From Marmoricola sp. OAE513 (GTDB taxonomy: Bacteria; Actinomycetota; Actinomycetes; Propionibacteriales; Nocardioidaceae): a stretch of DNA of 64,000 bases. A program made the position numbers and the translations under genes. The notes under the pieces are model-generated. The model saw nothing but the letters and a program-made list of their open reading frames with translations, was not told where the DNA came from and did no database searches. Shown piece after piece: positions 55,670 through 62,247 of this stretch (its first letter is position 1; the number at the start of each line of letters is the position of its first letter). The stretch spans positions 1,674,001 through 1,738,000 of the forward strand of contig NZ_JBEPOC010000001.1 of the NCBI RefSeq assembly GCF_040546585.1. The letters are read 5' to 3'.

Positions 55670-55765
55670 GGTGGGCTCCGAGGTCGAAGGGCTTCGTCCT
55701 TGAGGACAGCAGGACGGTACTTCAGGTGGAGGCACCGCACCGGGGGAACGACCGAGGGTTGAACC

Positions 55766-56398
55766 ATGACGATCCTCCTGTCCGACCCCGCCGTCGCCGC
55801 CGTGCCTGTCCTGGAGTGCCGCGAACCGCTGGTCACCCTCGACGCCTTCTTCGGTCGGCCGCAGTCGCTGGTCCGCGCGGGCCTCGCTACCCGGCTCGCC
55901 GACGCGAACGCGCTGCTGCCCGCCGGCGTCAGTCTGCGGGTGGTCGAGGGACACCGTCGGGTCGAGGACCAGCTCGCGATCATCGCGCGTTACTCCGCCG
56001 AGGTGTGCGCCGAGCGACCCGGCATCTCGGGCGACGAGCTGGATCGCCTCACCAGCCGGTTCGTCGCGCCGTTGGGTGTCGCGCCGCACGTCGCCGGCGC
56101 CGCGGTCGACCTGACCCTCGTCGACGCCTGCGGCGAGGAGCTGGACCTCGGCACACCGATCGACGCGACGCCGGAGCAGTCCGGCGGCCGGTGCTACTTC
56201 GATGCCGAGGTCGGCGCCGAAGCCCGGGCCAACCGCACCCTGCTCGCCGAGGTGCTGGGCGCGGCAGGATTCGTGAACTACCCGACCGAGTGGTGGCACT
56301 GGTCCTTCGGCGATCGCTACTGGGCGCTGATGACCGGCGCCCCCACCGCGCTGTACGGCCCGGTGCGGCTGCGCCCGCGGACCGAGGAGGCGGCGTGA
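55766..56398 (+). CDS. D-alanyl-D-alanine dipeptidase-like metallopeptidase (VanX type, M15D)
   Basis: 210 residues, near the size of VanX (about 202), with no signal peptide. Zinc ligands His108 and Asp115 lie in PHVAGAAVDLTL, and Glu175 and His178 in YPTEWWHWSFGDRYW; these correspond to the SxHxxGxAxD and EWWH motifs of VanX. Arg64 in EGHRR takes the place of the catalytic Arg. It should hydrolyse the free dipeptide D-Ala-D-Ala in the cytoplasm. GAGGG lies eight bases before the ATG. Its stop overlaps the racemase start (GTGA). It heads a set of racemase, ligase and two-component system. Confidence 0.9.
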   Translation: MTILLSDPAVAAVPVLECREPLVTLDAFFGRPQSLVRAGLATRLADANALLPAGVSLRVVEGHRRVEDQLAIIARYSAEVCAERPGISGDELDRLTSRFVAPLGVAPHVAGAAVDLTLVDACGEELDLGTPIDATPEQSGGRCYFDAEVGAEARANRTLLAEVLGAAGFVNYPTEWWHWSFGDRYWALMTGAPTALYGPVRLRPRTEEAA

Positions 56399-57543
56399 GC
56401 CCGGCGGTCACGGTGCTGCGCAGCGTGCAGGGGACCCGTCCCCGGTTGACCGGCCCGCAGCTGGTGGTCGACCTCGACGCGATCGCCGCGAACACCCAGA
56501 CGTTCGCGCGACGGACCCCGGGCGAGCTGATGGCGGTGGTCAAGGCGGACGGCTTCGGGCACGGCGCCGCCGACGTCGCGCGCACCGCCCTGGCGCACGG
56601 TGCCTCCCAGCTCGGTGTCACGGCGATCGCCGAGGGCCTCGCCCTCCGCGCCGCGGGCCTGAGTGCCCCGGTGCTCTCCTGGCTCAACCCCGTCGACGCC
56701 GACTGGGCCGCGGCGATCGGTGCGGACCTCGACGTCGCGGTCCCGTCCCGTGATCACCTCGACGCGCTGGCGCACGCCGCGGCGCAGATCGGCGGGCGTG
56801 CACGGGTGCACCTGCACCTCGACGCCGGCATGGCCCGCGACGGGGCCTCCCCCAGCGAGTGGGCGGCCCTGTGCCGCGCAGCCCGTCGCGCCGAGCTGCT
56901 CGGCCAGGTCCAGGTCGTCGGGATGATGGGCCACCTCGGCTGCGCCGACGACCCGGCGCACCCGTCCAACAGCACCGGTCGCACCCGGTTCGCCTGGGGT
57001 CTGATGACTGCCCGGGCGGCCGGGCTGCGTCCGGCCCAGCGTCACCTCGCCGCCACCTCGGCGACCCTGCTGGACCCGCTGAGCCACCACACGATGAGCC
57101 GCGTCGGCGCCGGCCTGGTCGGCATCGACCCGACCGGGACGACCGAGCTCCGCGGCGCGCTCACCGTGACGGCGCCGCTGGTCGAGGTCCGCTCGGTGCT
57201 CGCCGGGACTCCCGTCGGCTACGGCCACAGCTGGACCGCTCCAGCCGCCACCCGCCTCGGCCTGGTGCCGCTCGGGTACGCCGACGGGTTGCCCCGTCTC
57301 GCGTCCGGCGAGGCGTGGATGCGAGTCCGCGGCGTCCACGCCCCGGTGGCAGGACGGATCTCGATGGACATGACCGTCGTCGACCTCGGCAGCTCGGGAG
57401 CCGACGTCGGGGACGAGGTCACGGTCATCGGTCCGCGCGGCAGCGGGGGCCCGACCGTGGCCGACTGGGCAGGCTGGTCGGGCCTCCTCCCGCACGAGAT
57501 CGTCACCGGTCTCGGCGGCCGGCTGGTGCGGAGGACTGCATGA
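56395..57543 (+). CDS. alr: Alanine racemase
   Basis: 382 residues from GTG 56395. It is a PLP-dependent fold III racemase: the PLP lysine is Lys50 in AVVKADGFGHG (the common Tyr before GHG is Phe here), with HLHLDAGMARDG, GHLGCADDP, and a C-terminal VGYGHSWTAPAATRLGLVPL with the catalytic Tyr and GRISMDMTVVDL. There are no membrane segments, so it is not a full VanT with its sensor domain. It makes D-Ala from L-Ala; a role in D-Ser cannot be excluded. It is not next to tsaE/tsaB, the usual place of the housekeeping alr in actinobacteria, so it is probably a second copy. Confidence 0.93.
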   Translation: MSPAVTVLRSVQGTRPRLTGPQLVVDLDAIAANTQTFARRTPGELMAVVKADGFGHGAADVARTALAHGASQLGVTAIAEGLALRAAGLSAPVLSWLNPVDADWAAAIGADLDVAVPSRDHLDALAHAAAQIGGRARVHLHLDAGMARDGASPSEWAALCRAARRAELLGQVQVVGMMGHLGCADDPAHPSNSTGRTRFAWGLMTARAAGLRPAQRHLAATSATLLDPLSHHTMSRVGAGLVGIDPTGTTELRGALTVTAPLVEVRSVLAGTPVGYGHSWTAPAATRLGLVPLGYADGLPRLASGEAWMRVRGVHAPVAGRISMDMTVVDLGSSGADVGDEVTVIGPRGSGGPTVADWAGWSGLLPHEIVTGLGGRLVRRTA

Positions 57544-58487
57544 GCAGCGCGATCCGCGTCGCCGTGCTCGGCGGCGGTCAGAACTGCGAGCACGACGTCT
57601 CCCTCGCGTCCGCAACGTCGGTGGCAGCCGCGCTCGACCCCACGCGCTACGACGTCGTCCGGCTGACGATCGACCCTGACGGCGGGTGGCGCGACGGACG
57701 CGGGGATCTCCTCGGCATCGCCGGAGCAGTCCACCTGCTCACGACCTGCGACGTCGTGCTCCCCGTCCTGCACGGCCCGAAGGCTGAGGACGGCACCCTC
57801 GCCGGACTGCTCGACCTCGCCGGCGTCCCGTACGTCGGCTCTGGCGTCCGCGCCGGGGCACTCGCGATGGACAAGTGGGCGACCAAGCTCGTCGCCGAGG
57901 CGGTCGGCGTCGCGACGGCACCGGGCGTCATGCTCACCGCGGCGACCGCACGCTCCTACCGCTGGACGCACCCGGTCGTCGTCAAGCCGATCGCAGCAGG
58001 CTCCAGCCACGGCGTTGCCCTGGTCACCGAGCCCGACCGGCTCGAGGCTGCGCTCCGCGCCGCGCTCGCGCTGGACGAGCGCGTGCTGGTCGAGGACCTC
58101 GTCGTCGGTCGCGAGATCGACCTGGCCGTCCTCGGCCGCTCCGACGGCACCCGGATCGTCGCGCCCGCACTGGAGATCGTCACCGACGGACTCTTCGACT
58201 TCGCCACCAAGTACGACGGCAGCGCCGTCTTCCAGGTCCCGGCAGCCCTCGACGAGGCCGACCTCAAGGCGCTCGAGCACGCCGCGCTCGCGGTGTACGA
58301 CGCGCTCGGCTGCGCGGGTGTCGCACGCGTCGACTTCTTCCTGACCAGCAACGGCCCGGTGCTCAACGAGGTCAACACCTTCCCCGGCTTCACCGAGCAG
58401 TCGCAGGTGCCGAAGATGTTCGCCGCCGGCGGCACGTCGTACGGAGACCTGCTGGACCTCCTGGTCCAGGACGTTCTTGAGGGATGA
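57540..58487 (+). CDS. ddl: D-alanine--D-alanine ligase family protein
   Basis: 315 residues, DdlB-like in length and shorter than the ~370-residue mycobacterial Ddl. ATP-grasp motifs: LGGGQNCEHDVSLASAT, VVVKPIAAGSSHGVALV, the omega loop LFDFATKYDGSAVFQVPA with the Lys-Tyr found in D-Ala-D-Ala and VanC-type enzymes, ARVDFFL and LNEVNTFPGFT. It joins D-Ala to a second D-residue; whether that is D-Ala, D-Ser or D-lactate cannot be read safely. The start overlaps the racemase stop (ATGA). A peptidase that destroys D-Ala-D-Ala encoded in the same unit would make sense if the product differs from D-Ala-D-Ala. Confidence 0.93.
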   Translation: MSSAIRVAVLGGGQNCEHDVSLASATSVAAALDPTRYDVVRLTIDPDGGWRDGRGDLLGIAGAVHLLTTCDVVLPVLHGPKAEDGTLAGLLDLAGVPYVGSGVRAGALAMDKWATKLVAEAVGVATAPGVMLTAATARSYRWTHPVVVKPIAAGSSHGVALVTEPDRLEAALRAALALDERVLVEDLVVGREIDLAVLGRSDGTRIVAPALEIVTDGLFDFATKYDGSAVFQVPAALDEADLKALEHAALAVYDALGCAGVARVDFFLTSNGPVLNEVNTFPGFTEQSQVPKMFAAGGTSYGDLLDLLVQDVLEG

Positions 58488-58494
58488 TGGCTGC

Positions 58495-59751
58495 ATGACG
58501 ACGGCCCCCACCAGGGACCGGGCGCCGATCGACTGGCGCGAGTGGGTCCCCGACGTTCTCGTGGGTCTCGTCGTCCTCGGCTTCGGGCTCAGCGAGGCAC
58601 TCAGCACCGACTACGTGCCGTACTCGGCCGTCGACTTCCAGCCGTCCCGGGTCGCGCTGGTCTGGGTCGCGCTCGCGACCGCGCTCGCCGTCGGGCTGAG
58701 TCGACGGGCGCCATCGCTGGGGCTGGCCATCGTCTGGGCGGTCTGCGGCTACGAGCTGTCCGCGTCGATCCCGGTGATGTACGTCCAGCTCACCGTGGCG
58801 GCCGTCGCGTTCGGCGCCGCCCGCTGGGGCCACACCGCGACCGTCATCCTCAGCGGTCTGTCGATCCCGGTGGCGGGCGCCATCGCCGTGATCGCGGTGA
58901 ACACGAACATCCTCGGACCGGTCGTCGACGCCGCCCAGTTCCGGCGCCTGATGGACACCGTCCAACGGGTCACCGACTCCTGGCAGCTCGGCGCCGCCGT
59001 GCTCGGCATGGTGGTGCTCGCGGTGCCGTGGCTGATCGGCCTGACCGTGCGGTTCAGCAGCCGCGCGGCTGCCTCCGAGGCCTCGCAGCAGGTGGCCGAA
59101 CGCGAGGCTGCCCGAGCGCTGCGCGAGTCTGAGCAGGCCAAGGAGATCGCGCGTCTGCGCGAGGAGCAGACCCAGCTCGCCCGCGACGTGCACGACGTCG
59201 TCGGCCACTCCCTCGCCGTGATCCTGGCCCAGGCCGAGTCGGCGCAGTACCTCGACGAGGCCGACACCTCCGAGCTGCGGCGCTCCATGGCGAACATCGC
59301 CAGCTCCGCGCGCGGTTCGTTGCAGGACGTCCGTCAGGTGCTCACCTCGACCAACGAGCCGCTCACCGGTCCGGGCGACCTGCGCGAGCTGGTCGAGGGA
59401 GTGCGCTCCAGCGGCCACGAGGTCCGGTTCACCGAGGTCGGGACGCCGAGGCCGCTGCCGCCCGAGCTCGCCACCGTCGCCTACCGGGTGCTGCAGGAGA
59501 TGCTCACCAACGCGATCCGGCACGGCAGCCGGACGAGCCCGCTCGAGGTCGAGCTGGAGTGGCGCGAGTGGCTGCGGATCCAGGTGGTCAACAGCACCGA
59601 CATCCCCGGGCCGCCCACTGAGGGTGGCCACGGACTGGTCGGCATGCGCCGCCGCCTGGAGTCCGCCGGCGGGCGCCTCGAGCTCGGCCCCTTCGACCGG
59701 CCGACCTTCAGCGCGACTGCCTGGGTCCCGATGCGTACGGTCGTGACGTGA
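58495..59751 (+). CDS. Sensor histidine kinase (HisKA_3/NarL type)
   Basis: 418 residues from ATG 58495, seven bases after the ligase stop, with GAGGG upstream. About six membrane helices lie in residues 20-190 (e.g. VLVGLVVLGFGL, VALVWVALATALAVGL, LGAAVLGMVVLAVPWLIGL) with only short loops, so sensing is probably within the membrane. A short coiled coil follows (SEASQQVAEREAARALRESE). The HisKA_3 motif is QLARDVHDVVGHSLAVIL with phospho-His233, and the ATPase has EMLTNAIRHG and GGHGLVGMRRRLESAGG. This class includes LiaS/VraS, sensors of cell-wall damage. It forms a pair with the next gene. Confidence 0.93.
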   Translation: MTTAPTRDRAPIDWREWVPDVLVGLVVLGFGLSEALSTDYVPYSAVDFQPSRVALVWVALATALAVGLSRRAPSLGLAIVWAVCGYELSASIPVMYVQLTVAAVAFGAARWGHTATVILSGLSIPVAGAIAVIAVNTNILGPVVDAAQFRRLMDTVQRVTDSWQLGAAVLGMVVLAVPWLIGLTVRFSSRAAASEASQQVAEREAARALRESEQAKEIARLREEQTQLARDVHDVVGHSLAVILAQAESAQYLDEADTSELRRSMANIASSARGSLQDVRQVLTSTNEPLTGPGDLRELVEGVRSSGHEVRFTEVGTPRPLPPELATVAYRVLQEMLTNAIRHGSRTSPLEVELEWREWLRIQVVNSTDIPGPPTEGGHGLVGMRRRLESAGGRLELGPFDRPTFSATAWVPMRTVVT

Positions 59752-60416
59752 TGAGCGAGAACATCAAGGTCTTGCTCGTCGACGACCAGGACCTCTTCCG
59801 CGAGGGCGTGGCGGTGATCGTCAACGCCCAGGAGGGCATGGAGGTCGTCGGCCAGGCCGGGGACGGTCTCGAGGCGATCGCCCAGGTCGACGCGCTCGAC
59901 CCCGACGTCGTGCTGATGGACATCCGGATGCCCGAGATGGACGGTGTCGAGGCGACCCGGCAGCTGTTCGCCCCCGACCGGGCGGCGAAGCGGACCAAGC
60001 CGCTGCGGGTTCTGGTACTGACCACCTTCAACCTCGACGACCGCGCCGCGACCGCGATCCGGCACGGCGCCAGCGGCTTCCTGCTCAAGGACACCACCCC
60101 GGTGATGCTGCGCGACGCGATCCGGACCGTGCACGCCGGCAACGCCGTCCTCGCGCCCACCGACCTGACCACGCTGCTCGACCAGCAGTTCATCGAGGCG
60201 ACCCCGACCCCGTCGGCGTACCTGGAGCTCACCGAGAAGGAGCGCGAGGTCTTCGAGGCCGTCGCGCGCGGTCTGTCCAACGCCGAGATCGCGGGTCTGG
60301 TGTTCGCCAGCGAGTCCACGGTGAAGACCCACGTCGGCGCGATCCTGCGCAAGCTCGCCCTGCGCGACCGGGTACAGATCGTCGTGTTCGCCCACGAGCA
60401 CGGGCTCGTGGGCTAG
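59751..60416 (+). CDS. NarL/LuxR-type response regulator
   Basis: 221 residues. The receiver domain has VLLVDDQDLFREG, the phospho-acceptor Asp57 in VVLMDIRMPEMDG, VLVLTTF and GFLLKDTTP. The C-terminal LuxR HTH is LTEKEREVFEAVARGLSNAE with IAGLVFASESTVKTHVGAIL. Its ATG shares its first base with the kinase stop. With the kinase it makes a LiaSR/VraSR-class two-component system. Placed right after the dipeptidase-racemase-ligase genes, it may control them in response to cell-wall stress (inference). Confidence 0.95.
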   Translation: MSENIKVLLVDDQDLFREGVAVIVNAQEGMEVVGQAGDGLEAIAQVDALDPDVVLMDIRMPEMDGVEATRQLFAPDRAAKRTKPLRVLVLTTFNLDDRAATAIRHGASGFLLKDTTPVMLRDAIRTVHAGNAVLAPTDLTTLLDQQFIEATPTPSAYLELTEKEREVFEAVARGLSNAEIAGLVFASESTVKTHVGAILRKLALRDRVQIVVFAHEHGLVG

Positions 60417-60419
60417 TCC

Positions 60420-61208
60420 TCAGAAACCCGGGAAGACCTGGCGCAGCTGGTCGAGTGTGACGTTGCCGGTCACCGTCACGCTCTCCGGCGTGTACGCCGC
60501 TCCGAGCCGCCCGGTGATCAGCCGCTGCGCCGCTTCGGGGGACCCGGCGAACGTGGCCGTCGCCGCGTCACCGGCTGCCCCGAGGCTGACGGAGTCGTCG
60601 ATCACCAGGCTGTAGTCGGCACCGTCGACGGCCAGGACCACGCGCTCGTCGAGGACGTCGGCCTTGCCGATGAAGCCGAGCAGGAAGCCGAGGCCGCCGC
60701 GCAGGTGCTCGGGAAGCACGGCGGCACTGCTGTCGAGGAGACCGGCCTCGGGGTCGACCGCGACGCGGACGTCCCAGCTGTGGTGGGCCACCTCGTTCAG
60801 CCGCAGACCCGCTGCGCCGGCGATGCTCAGCGGTGCCGGCAGGAAGCCGATCGGCACCTCCACCGACTCGTGCTGCTCCGGGGTCAGCGACTCCAGCGCC
60901 TCGGTCAGGATCCGGTTGTGCTCGAGGAACCCGTCGCGCTGCTCGGTCGGGGACATCGCGTCCCACCGAGCCCAGACGCTCGGGTTGAAGTCGTCGCCCG
61001 GGACGTCGCGCTCACCGAGCGCCGCCTGGAAGCCGGCCAGCGAGATCTCCGACCCGCTGCCGAGGTGGGAGAGCACCTGGGCGACGGTCCACTCCGACGC
61101 GCCCGAGGGGCCGGTCAGCTGGGCGTCGGTGAAGGTCGCGGCGAGAGCGGTGAGGACGTCGTTCTCGTGACGGAGGGCATCGATCGTGCGCGCTGCGAGG
61201 GAGGTCAT
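60420..61208 (-). CDS. Maleylpyruvate isomerase family mycothiol-dependent protein (DinB plus SCP2-like domain)
   Basis: 262 residues from ATG 61208 with a GGAGGG ribosome site. The N-terminal DinB-like domain has WTVAQVLSHLGSGSEISLAG and LRLNEVAHHSWDVRVAVDPE; the metal-binding histidines lie in SHLG and HHSWD. The C-terminal ~90 residues form an SCP2-like/MDMPI C-terminal domain (VVLAVDGADYSLVIDDSVSL, TFAGSPEAAQRLITGRLGAA). The substrate is unknown. It is the longer relative of the gene at 17087. It is convergent with the response regulator gene, three bases apart. Confidence 0.87.
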   Translation of the reverse strand: MTSLAARTIDALRHENDVLTALAATFTDAQLTGPSGASEWTVAQVLSHLGSGSEISLAGFQAALGERDVPGDDFNPSVWARWDAMSPTEQRDGFLEHNRILTEALESLTPEQHESVEVPIGFLPAPLSIAGAAGLRLNEVAHHSWDVRVAVDPEAGLLDSSAAVLPEHLRGGLGFLLGFIGKADVLDERVVLAVDGADYSLVIDDSVSLGAAGDAATATFAGSPEAAQRLITGRLGAAYTPESVTVTGNVTLDQLRQVFPGF

Positions 61209-61257
61209 CCCTCCACGGTACTCACAACCTCCGCTCCGGACGCGCCATGATGTCCGG

Positions 61258-62247
61258 GTGACCGACATCGAGCAGCCCGAGCCGGCCGGACCCGTCCACA
61301 GCGCTGTCCAGGCGTACGCCGAGCTGCAGCCGCAGCTGCCCGAGGTCACCGACTTCTACGTGCACCTGATCACCCAGCTCCTCGACGACGCCGGCATCAA
61401 CTACCTGTCCGTCACCGGCCGCACCAAGAGCGTCGCGTCGTTCGCCTCGAAGGCCAACCGCACCGACCCGTCGGCGATCACCGACCAGGTCGGCGTCCGG
61501 GTGATCACCTACGTGCTCGCCGACGTCGCCGCCGTCGCCGACCTGCTGGCGGACCAGATGGTCGTGCTCGACGACCGGGACATGGCTCTGGAGACCGCGA
61601 GCAAGGGCAGCTTCGGCTACGCCAGCCGGCACGTGCTCGTCGACCTCAAGCCGACCGCGGGGCCGGCGAAGATCCGTCCGGCGTCGGTGCAGATCCGCAC
61701 GGTGCTGCAGCACGCGTGGGCGGAGTTCGAGCACGACATCCGCTACAAGGGCACCATCCCGCAGGAGTACGTCCCCGACCTCGACCGGCGCTTCACGCTG
61801 GCGGCCGGACTGCTCGAGCTCGCCGACCGCGAGTTCTCCGAGATCCGCGACCGACTGCAGGCCGCGACGCCGAAGCACCGCGACGGCGAGGACCCGGGCG
61901 ACCCGCGCCTCTCCGCGCAGGACCTGGCCGCCTTCCTCTCCGGTCAGTACGCCGACGCAGGCTGGTCGCGCACCGACCACTACGCCTGGATCTCCGGACT
62001 CCTGCTCGAGCTCGGCATCACCTCGCTCGAGGAGCTGGCCGGCCTGCTCACCTCGGTCGACAGCAGCGTCATCAACGAGCGGCTCGCCTACAAGTACCCG
62101 CCCGGCGCCGTACGCCGCCTCGACGACGCCCTGCTCGCCGTCTTCGGTCAGCAGTACGTCGACCTGCACGGGAACGGCCACCGGGTCGAGCTGCTCCGGA
62201 CGCGCCTGGAGAAGCTGCGCGCGGAGACCGAACCCGTCACCGAATGA
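61258..62247 (+). CDS. RelA/SpoT-domain protein (GTP pyrophosphokinase-like, small alarmone synthetase class)
   Basis: 329 residues from GTG 61258; no hydrolase HD domain is present. The synthetase fold shows YLSVTGRTKSVASFASKANR (ATP/GTP-binding segment), DQVGVRVITYVLADVAAVAD, GYASRHVLVDL and VQIRTVLQHAWAEFEHDIRY. The ~100-residue C-terminal helical extension (LSAQDLAAFLSGQYADAGWS, SLEELAGLLTSVDSSVINER) is not part of bifunctional Rel. Members make (p)ppGpp or related nucleotides from ATP and GDP/GTP. CATGAT lies six bases before the GTG with no ribosome site. It is divergent from the MDMPI-like gene. Confidence 0.9.
   Translation: MTDIEQPEPAGPVHSAVQAYAELQPQLPEVTDFYVHLITQLLDDAGINYLSVTGRTKSVASFASKANRTDPSAITDQVGVRVITYVLADVAAVADLLADQMVVLDDRDMALETASKGSFGYASRHVLVDLKPTAGPAKIRPASVQIRTVLQHAWAEFEHDIRYKGTIPQEYVPDLDRRFTLAAGLLELADREFSEIRDRLQAATPKHRDGEDPGDPRLSAQDLAAFLSGQYADAGWSRTDHYAWISGLLLELGITSLEELAGLLTSVDSSVINERLAYKYPPGAVRRLDDALLAVFGQQYVDLHGNGHRVELLRTRLEKLRAETEPVTE

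Follow-up and report, generated by a model that had tools for sequence, protein, structure and literature searches.

The van systems combine VanH or VanT with an altered ligase and a D-Ala-D-Ala dipeptidase; VanY removes the terminal D-Ala of pentapeptides that escape, VanZ has a role in teicoplanin resistance, and the D-Ser types confer low to moderate resistance (PMC8541618, in excerpt). VanZ is proposed to act on the lipid II head group (PMC12419801, in excerpt), while VanT is a fusion of an acyltransferase-3 (AT3) part, the role of which is unknown, with a racemase (PMC9558356, in excerpt). For Actinobacteria, a survey of van-like genes reports, in the text available of it, the pdx operon and rare sets of vanRSY with a racemase and ddl (PMC8698665); that text holds no word beginning Nocardioid. 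Here we describe a five-gene unit of Marmoricola sp. OAE513 (Nocardioidaceae), found in a stretch of 64,000 nucleotides (the window; positions 1674001-1738000 of a 3.89 Mb single-contig genome, G000:C1). We propose that this unit is probably the core of an accessory, signal-controlled Van-type regulon, operated by a NarL-type system, which alters the terminus of the stem peptide of peptidoglycan by making D-Ala-D-X, X being perhaps D-Ser. The features, in window coordinates, are:

55696-55731, plus strand: two-box operator, GTCCTTGAGGAC ... CGGTACTTCAGGTGGAG, the proposed site of T, 34 nt before the ATG of X and conserved in 23 of 23 unit loci
55766-56398, plus strand: X, cytoplasmic M15 (VanX-like) D,D-dipeptidase with zinc ligands His108, Asp115 and His178, and with Glu175 and Arg64
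56395-57543, plus strand: R, enzyme of the fold-type III alanine racemase family, with a GTG start and His367 at the Tyr354-equivalent position
57540-58487, plus strand: L, putative D-Ala-D-X ligase (ATP-grasp), with Gln289 where housekeeping enzymes have Met and with the omega-loop Tyr225 kept
58495-59751, plus strand: K, HisKA_3 sensor kinase with about 5 membrane-like segments
59751-60416, plus strand: T, NarL/LuxR-type response regulator (Response_reg and GerE)

The initial annotation had described five co-directional genes in a tight unit, and all five open reading frames (ORFs) were recovered at their place and strand, with agreeing Pfam domains (Peptidase_M15; Ala_racemase N and C; Dala_Dala_lig N and C; HisKA_3; Response_reg and GerE). 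X and R, and likewise R and L, overlap by 4 bases, a 7-base gap separates L from K, and K and T overlap by 1 base; an earlier in-frame GTG lies at 59748.

The predicted gene kinds match the van logic with other regulators, and the unit would work like a van system yet fall outside the known van types by the features compared (AT3-racemase fusion, VanRS, VanH). It shares with the enterococcal D-Ala-D-Ser systems (VanC/E/G/L/N-type) a racemase, a Ddl-family ligase, an M15 D,D-peptidase and a two-component system, and differs from them in its single VanX-like dipeptidase, VanY being unlinked, and in its regulators: a NarL/GerE regulator and a HisKA_3 kinase stand in place of the VanR/VanS pair with its OmpR-type regulator. 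The VanA/VanB systems (D-Ala-D-Lac) have VanX-, VanY- and VanZ-family members under one regulator, an arrangement that the operator suggests here as well; the vanA plasmid pIP816 carries VanX, VanY and VanZ, gene kinds that match the regulon. The unit differs from VanA/VanB in having no VanH, other ligase residues, another regulator family and scattered partners. The pdx operon of Micromonosporales also joins a PLP enzyme, a Ddl-like ligase and a VanX-like dipeptidase to a two-component pair; its PLP enzyme, however, is a PALP serine-threonine dehydratase and its pair is VanRS-like, so that the Pfam domains of the unit, compared with the description in the available text of PMC8698665, do not fit it. 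The sets of vanRSY with an alanine/aspartate racemase and ddl in the same text likewise link a racemase, Ddl and VanY to a two-component pair, but this pair is of the VanRS family and the cluster holds a carboxypeptidase, a VanX-like dipeptidase not being mentioned there. Full-text literature searches (titles and abstracts, most subscription journals lying outside their coverage) returned no description of an X-R-L unit with a NarL pair.

At E 0.001, and counting weak M15 relatives, relatives of X are found in 113 of 294 family genomes. In 40 family loci with an X relative, hand-picked across the identity range, the order X-R-L-K-T is present in 22/22 loci with X of at least 56% identity and in 0/18 with X at 41-54% identity, one of which has a distant Ddl beside X. 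The initial annotation had made the regulatory link depend on such a survey of relatives, and the conservation of the five-gene order rules out a chance assembly. The identity of T is 72-84% in 20 of the 22 unit loci; the two others show 75%, one of them (L052) having been matched in two pieces. Counts in named loci refer to the best 80 X loci among named genomes. R and L lie downstream of X in 67 of these, 46 of the 67 having K-T within 6.5 kb, like the window; the remaining 13 are truncated contigs, unlinked X or different orders. Other orders are R-L-X in Kribbella, K-T-R-L-X in Terracoccus and a rearranged set in Promicromonospora, and X-R-L-AT3 is found without K-T in Lentzea, Actinopolyspora and some Cellulomonas. 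X-R-L is therefore a stable core and K-T its frequent controller: the core is widespread in Actinomycetes, and K-T frequently follows it. In two loci (L136 and L165) the enzyme genes are preceded, not followed, by a NarL-type kinase-regulator pair, so pairs broadly of this type may have been recruited to the core on more than one occasion.

The genome holds a second Ddl gene at 502455, between ORFs that we read as gpsA-like and thiL-like, and a second Alr gene at 1092058, beside ORFs read as nnrD-like and tsaE-like. It had been pointed out at the outset that the set would be mere housekeeping D-Ala metabolism if it held the only alr and ddl of the genome and its dipeptidase lacked D-Ala-D-Ala activity; because second copies exist in standard contexts, that objection fails and the unit is not the housekeeping set. 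Among 15 genomes examined, 8/8 with the unit have two Alr and two Ddl (a third Ddl in one of them) and 7/7 without it have one of each, Ddl copies being counted at E 1e-30 with weaker relatives excluded; a divergent Ddl match with Val is additionally present in G029 and G061.

R (382 amino acids) consists of racemase domains only. In an alignment with five solved Alrs its His367 replaces the Tyr of their YE(I/V) motif. This Tyr of Alr helps to define substrate choice, and VanT has Asn there (PMC3485190, in excerpt). In the 15 genomes the position holds His in 8/8 unit Alrs vs Tyr in 15/15 housekeeping Alrs, and in 76 named racemases it holds His in 67, Asn in 5, Tyr in 1 (L167, not linked to X) and a gap in 3; the unit family, with His and sometimes Asn, is thus altered at the same position as VanT.

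The family of the AT3 part of VanT also recurs: an AT3 gene (PF01757) lies beside the set in 32 of the best 80 named loci (tblastn with one query), as a separate gene where VanT is fused. The contrasts with van loci drawn in the initial annotation hold for the window, but the one that the racemase lacks a membrane domain is qualified by these separate genes. The separate partner may show the unfused state of VanT. As a VanT half recognisable by profile the AT3 protein was rejected: none of the vanT models gave a match at E 0.1, and the link is the shared Pfam family. A stand-alone AT3 gene is placed between L and K within the operon in L050, L051, L053-L056, L058, L064, L065 and others.

In L, column 289 is Gln in 8/8 unit Ddls vs Met in 15/15 housekeeping Ddls of the 15 genomes, and Gln in 73 of 74 named ligases, with Gly in one; VanA and VanB have Arg, and solved Ddls have Met except for one pair with Val. 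Of the named ligases, 73/74 keep the omega-loop Tyr225 (one gap), while VanA and VanB differ there. Keeping this Tyr and having Gln also set L apart from the ligases of the VanC/E/G/L/N types. We take column 289 to correspond to Arg322 of VanC2, reportedly a tested specificity residue (Healy, Park and Walsh 1998). In the plasmid searches, in which the neighbourhoods of two racemase matches were inspected, a plasmid of Streptomyces sp. SYP-A7193 (L087:6010-8211) was found to encode a 733-aa fused Alr-Ddl protein with both the unit-type His and the unit-type Gln, an indication that the two substitutions come as a pair. Being specific to this class, the His of R and the Gln of L suggest a second dipeptide residue other than D-Ala; D-Ser would be our first guess.

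X scores 61.2 bits with Peptidase_M15 (cut-off 27), and His108, Asp115, His178, Arg64 and Glu175 are invariant in alignments of 16 and of 33 X sequences, in agreement with the intact zinc ligands first reported for this VanX-like dipeptidase. The predicted structure (pLDDT 88.8) has as its best solved match VanX (1r44, E 4.8e-9), VanYB and VanXYc also being among the best, so that alignment and predicted fold both place X with the Van D,D-peptidases. X shows no apparent signal peptide, and with 35 bits it lies below the curated cut-off of 320 of the VanX equivalog (NCBIfam NF033115). A second clade of X-like dipeptidases (L067, L069, L071-L086; 41-54% identical to X) keeps the catalytic motifs; its genes are not linked to R-L-K-T and have no operator, and one of them (L072) adjoins a distant Ddl.

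The operator of K-T loci consists of two boxes about 22 bp apart, near the consensus GTCCTCGAGGAC and CGGCACCTCAGGTGGAG, approximately 34 nt before the ATG of X. With a matrix trained on K-T loci, 46 of 47 such loci score above 16, the largest of 405 shuffles being 0.55. Of 34 loci that lack K-T within 6.5 kb, four exceed 35 (three of them on short contigs, the fourth with K-T beyond an insert), and the other 30 reach at most 12.2. In a cross-validation with a matrix trained on 29 Nocardioidaceae loci alone, 4/4 Jiangella loci scored 49.9-52.8, 6/6 Micromonosporaceae loci 26.8-37.3, and six of eight other loci 15-32, vs -18.2 to 9.9 for 20 loci without downstream K-T and 11.7 for the largest of 1620 shuffles. 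A cleaner control than K-T-less loci from other lineages is provided by the family's own orphan X genes: 23/23 unit loci, some of them from genomes also in the training set, score 20.4-53.1, and 18/18 orphan X loci -24.0 to -3.8. As order and operator are conserved together, the regulatory link of K-T to the enzymes, which the initial annotation held would fall if the pair were not conserved in relatives, survives that test. The name "LiaSR-type" given there to K-T is apt as a class label and does not extend to LiaS membership (21.1 bits for K vs a cut-off of 450). A TAGCGT/TAACGT motif lies 7 nt before the ATG in 13/40 loci, as in a leaderless promoter, and is not present in the window.

The operator pattern has two sites in the window genome, where a reversed control pattern has none; as a background, a phylum-wide scan allowing up to 2 mismatches matched in 2 of 395 genomes besides this one. 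The second site precedes the gene of a 248-aa membrane-anchored protein (P0006) with the sequences SAHYEGRAID and HVHVD, which we take for a LAS-type peptidase from the motif SxHxxGxAxD...HxH; this class assignment rests on the motif, as P0006 has no Pfam match (the nearest family, at E 0.17, is unrelated) and its PDB match is weak. Relatives of P0006 are general in the family (some match in 282/288 genomes), but among 14 genus mates the operator precedes the close copy in 5/5 with the unit (22.4-37.1) vs 0/9 without it (-27.1 to -7.6; exact p 0.0005). Across 43 chosen genomes, in which the unit was called from the X type, the five-gene order being read directly in the 40 hand-picked loci only, the pattern occurs in 33/33 with unit-type X and 0/10 without it, with 4 hits of the control pattern over all 43. 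Eighteen of these sites are not before X: 3 precede the LAS-peptidase gene, 14 were fetched and 1 is another. The fetched sites lie before VanY-motif lipoproteins (7), VanZ (3) and DUF6518 (2), the remaining 2 being chance-like; Pfam agrees for VanY in 5/5 tested, VanZ in 3/3 and DUF6518 in 2/2, and the start codon is 31-34 nt downstream of the site in 11 of the 12 targets and 61 nt in one VanZ. The two DUF6518 membrane proteins (L239 and L241, in G087 and G110) stand directly behind the operator with their start at +33, a position that is a possible lead to DUF6518 function. A VanY query matched in 83/288 family genomes at E 1e-20; 24 of the 30 best VanY loci are in genomes with unit-type X, and 23 of these 24 have an operator-like site (4.1-34.9) with an in-frame start at +33 to +35, G090 having none.

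We propose that K-T would sense stress on the cell envelope, perhaps inside the membrane (for K, which has hydrophobic membrane-like segments, stress of the membrane or the lipid cycle is a guess), and that T would bind the two-box operator and switch on X-R-L-K-T; the site and its linkage to K-T come from comparison, while binding by T, the substrates of R and L and the effects on precursors and antibiotics are what we infer. From the enzyme classes and the van precedent, R would supply a D-amino acid, L would join it to D-Ala, and X would destroy the housekeeping Ddl's D-Ala-D-Ala, leaving the new dipeptide for MurF to use. The same operator would drive VanY lipoproteins, VanZ and DUF6518 proteins elsewhere in unit genomes and, in this genus, also the LAS-type peptidase; the secreted D,D-peptidases would trim D-Ala-D-Ala termini that escape. 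The expected outcome would be tolerance, inducible and probably low-level, of D-Ala-D-Ala-binding agents. We further suggest, tentatively, that the unit represents a van class of actinobacteria not yet described, in which NarL-type control extends over a dedicated racemase-ligase pair, producing D-Ala-D-Ser or D-Ala with another polar D-amino acid, and over scattered partners tied by the operator.

Several observations weigh against a Van-type regulon, for which all evidence is comparative, the genes, their order, the residues, the operator and its targets having come from sequence comparison. R passes the alanine racemase model (235 bits vs 168) and L clears the cut-offs of two models for D-Ala-D-Ala ligases; with VanT, VanG and other van models, both fall far short of the cut-offs (71.6-167 bits vs 460-900 for R with the vanT models; 242.9 vs 495 for L with VanG). 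The omega-loop Tyr225 of L is typical of D-Ala-D-Ala ligases, and VanC2 presumably has Phe250 at this position, which, if right, counts against a VanC-like reading. To our knowledge Gln289 has no precedent. The unit has no VanT-like AT3-racemase fusion, nor does the window hold an AT3 gene. Regarding the operator, one locus (L141) has K-T with a score of only 0.3 (-2.0 in the cross-validation, where L160 is also low at 6.3); of the loci without K-T, L154 (12.2) and L132 (11.3), as well as L148 (2.1), exceed the shuffles; and the contrast between loci with and without K-T may be partly phylogeny, the latter being mostly from other lineages. The window genome's own VanY gene (3766324-3766842) has a weak site (5.8), and of the 6 VanY genomes without X three have no site and three have one (14.2, 17.2 and 23.3). 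The latter three operator-like sites, 34 nt before VanY in genomes without an X match (L311 in G206, L329 in G126 and L331 in G214), imply that VanY control is not strictly tied to X.

The unit might instead be a stress-induced spare supply of D-Ala-D-Ala, for instance under D-cycloserine-like inhibition of Alr or Ddl, with X only trimming the excess. The general models that R and L pass and the kept Tyr225 would agree with it, D-cycloserine resistance has been reported from integron-borne Ddl variants (PMC7691350) and the Streptomyces plasmid carries its fused Alr-Ddl protein; nevertheless, with a D,D-dipeptidase on the same transcript the product would be cut again, the specificity-linked residues differ from those of the housekeeping enzymes (8/8 vs 15/15) and the operator is common to VanY and VanZ genes, and we regard a spare supply as unlikely. 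The initial annotation had left open whether the unit remodels the precursor or buffers the D-Ala pool: the extra Alr and Ddl copies, the class-specific residues of R and L and the operator shared with VanY/VanZ genes argue for remodelling, while buffering has no support of its own.

A role in wall remodelling for the organism's own growth or development, or in dipeptide recycling, on an internal signal and with no part for antibiotics, is less probable still. The unit is chromosomal, common in soil actinobacteria and has variable neighbours, and X-R-L-AT3 without K-T in Lentzea and others would suit such a role, but VanY/VanZ partners and two-component control fit an inducible defence better, as the patchy presence within the family fits an accessory trait. 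A VanA/B-like D-Ala-D-Lac resistance would account for VanX-, VanY- and VanZ-family members in one regulon, as on pIP816; it is highly improbable, however, since the unit has a racemase instead of a VanH-like gene beside the ligase, and neither the omega-loop residues nor the Arg of VanA/VanB are present in L.

If the Van-type regulon is real, ordinary soil actinobacteria commonly have precursor remodelling as an inducible trait, which is then not confined to glycopeptide producers and pathogens; this trait has a sensor family of its own and a regulon so scattered that van surveys based on position would overlook it. The regulon would offer parallels or ancestors for the D-Ala-D-Ser branch and a natural racemase/ligase set with paired changes at specificity-linked sites. 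The operator would become a handle for finding wall-remodelling genes of unknown role (DUF6518, LAS-type peptidase), and the AT3 half of VanT, whose job is unknown, would gain a setting in which the AT3 gene is separate and deletable.

In the window the unit is flanked upstream by an SDR gene and an SNF2 helicase, and downstream by a mycothiol-isomerase-like gene, a RelA/SpoT-domain gene and an alkaline phosphatase. The RelA/SpoT-domain gene (61186-62247) lies close to the 3' end of the unit, and likewise in three genus mates (L047-L049), which suggests that the neighbourhood of the two is conserved within the genus.

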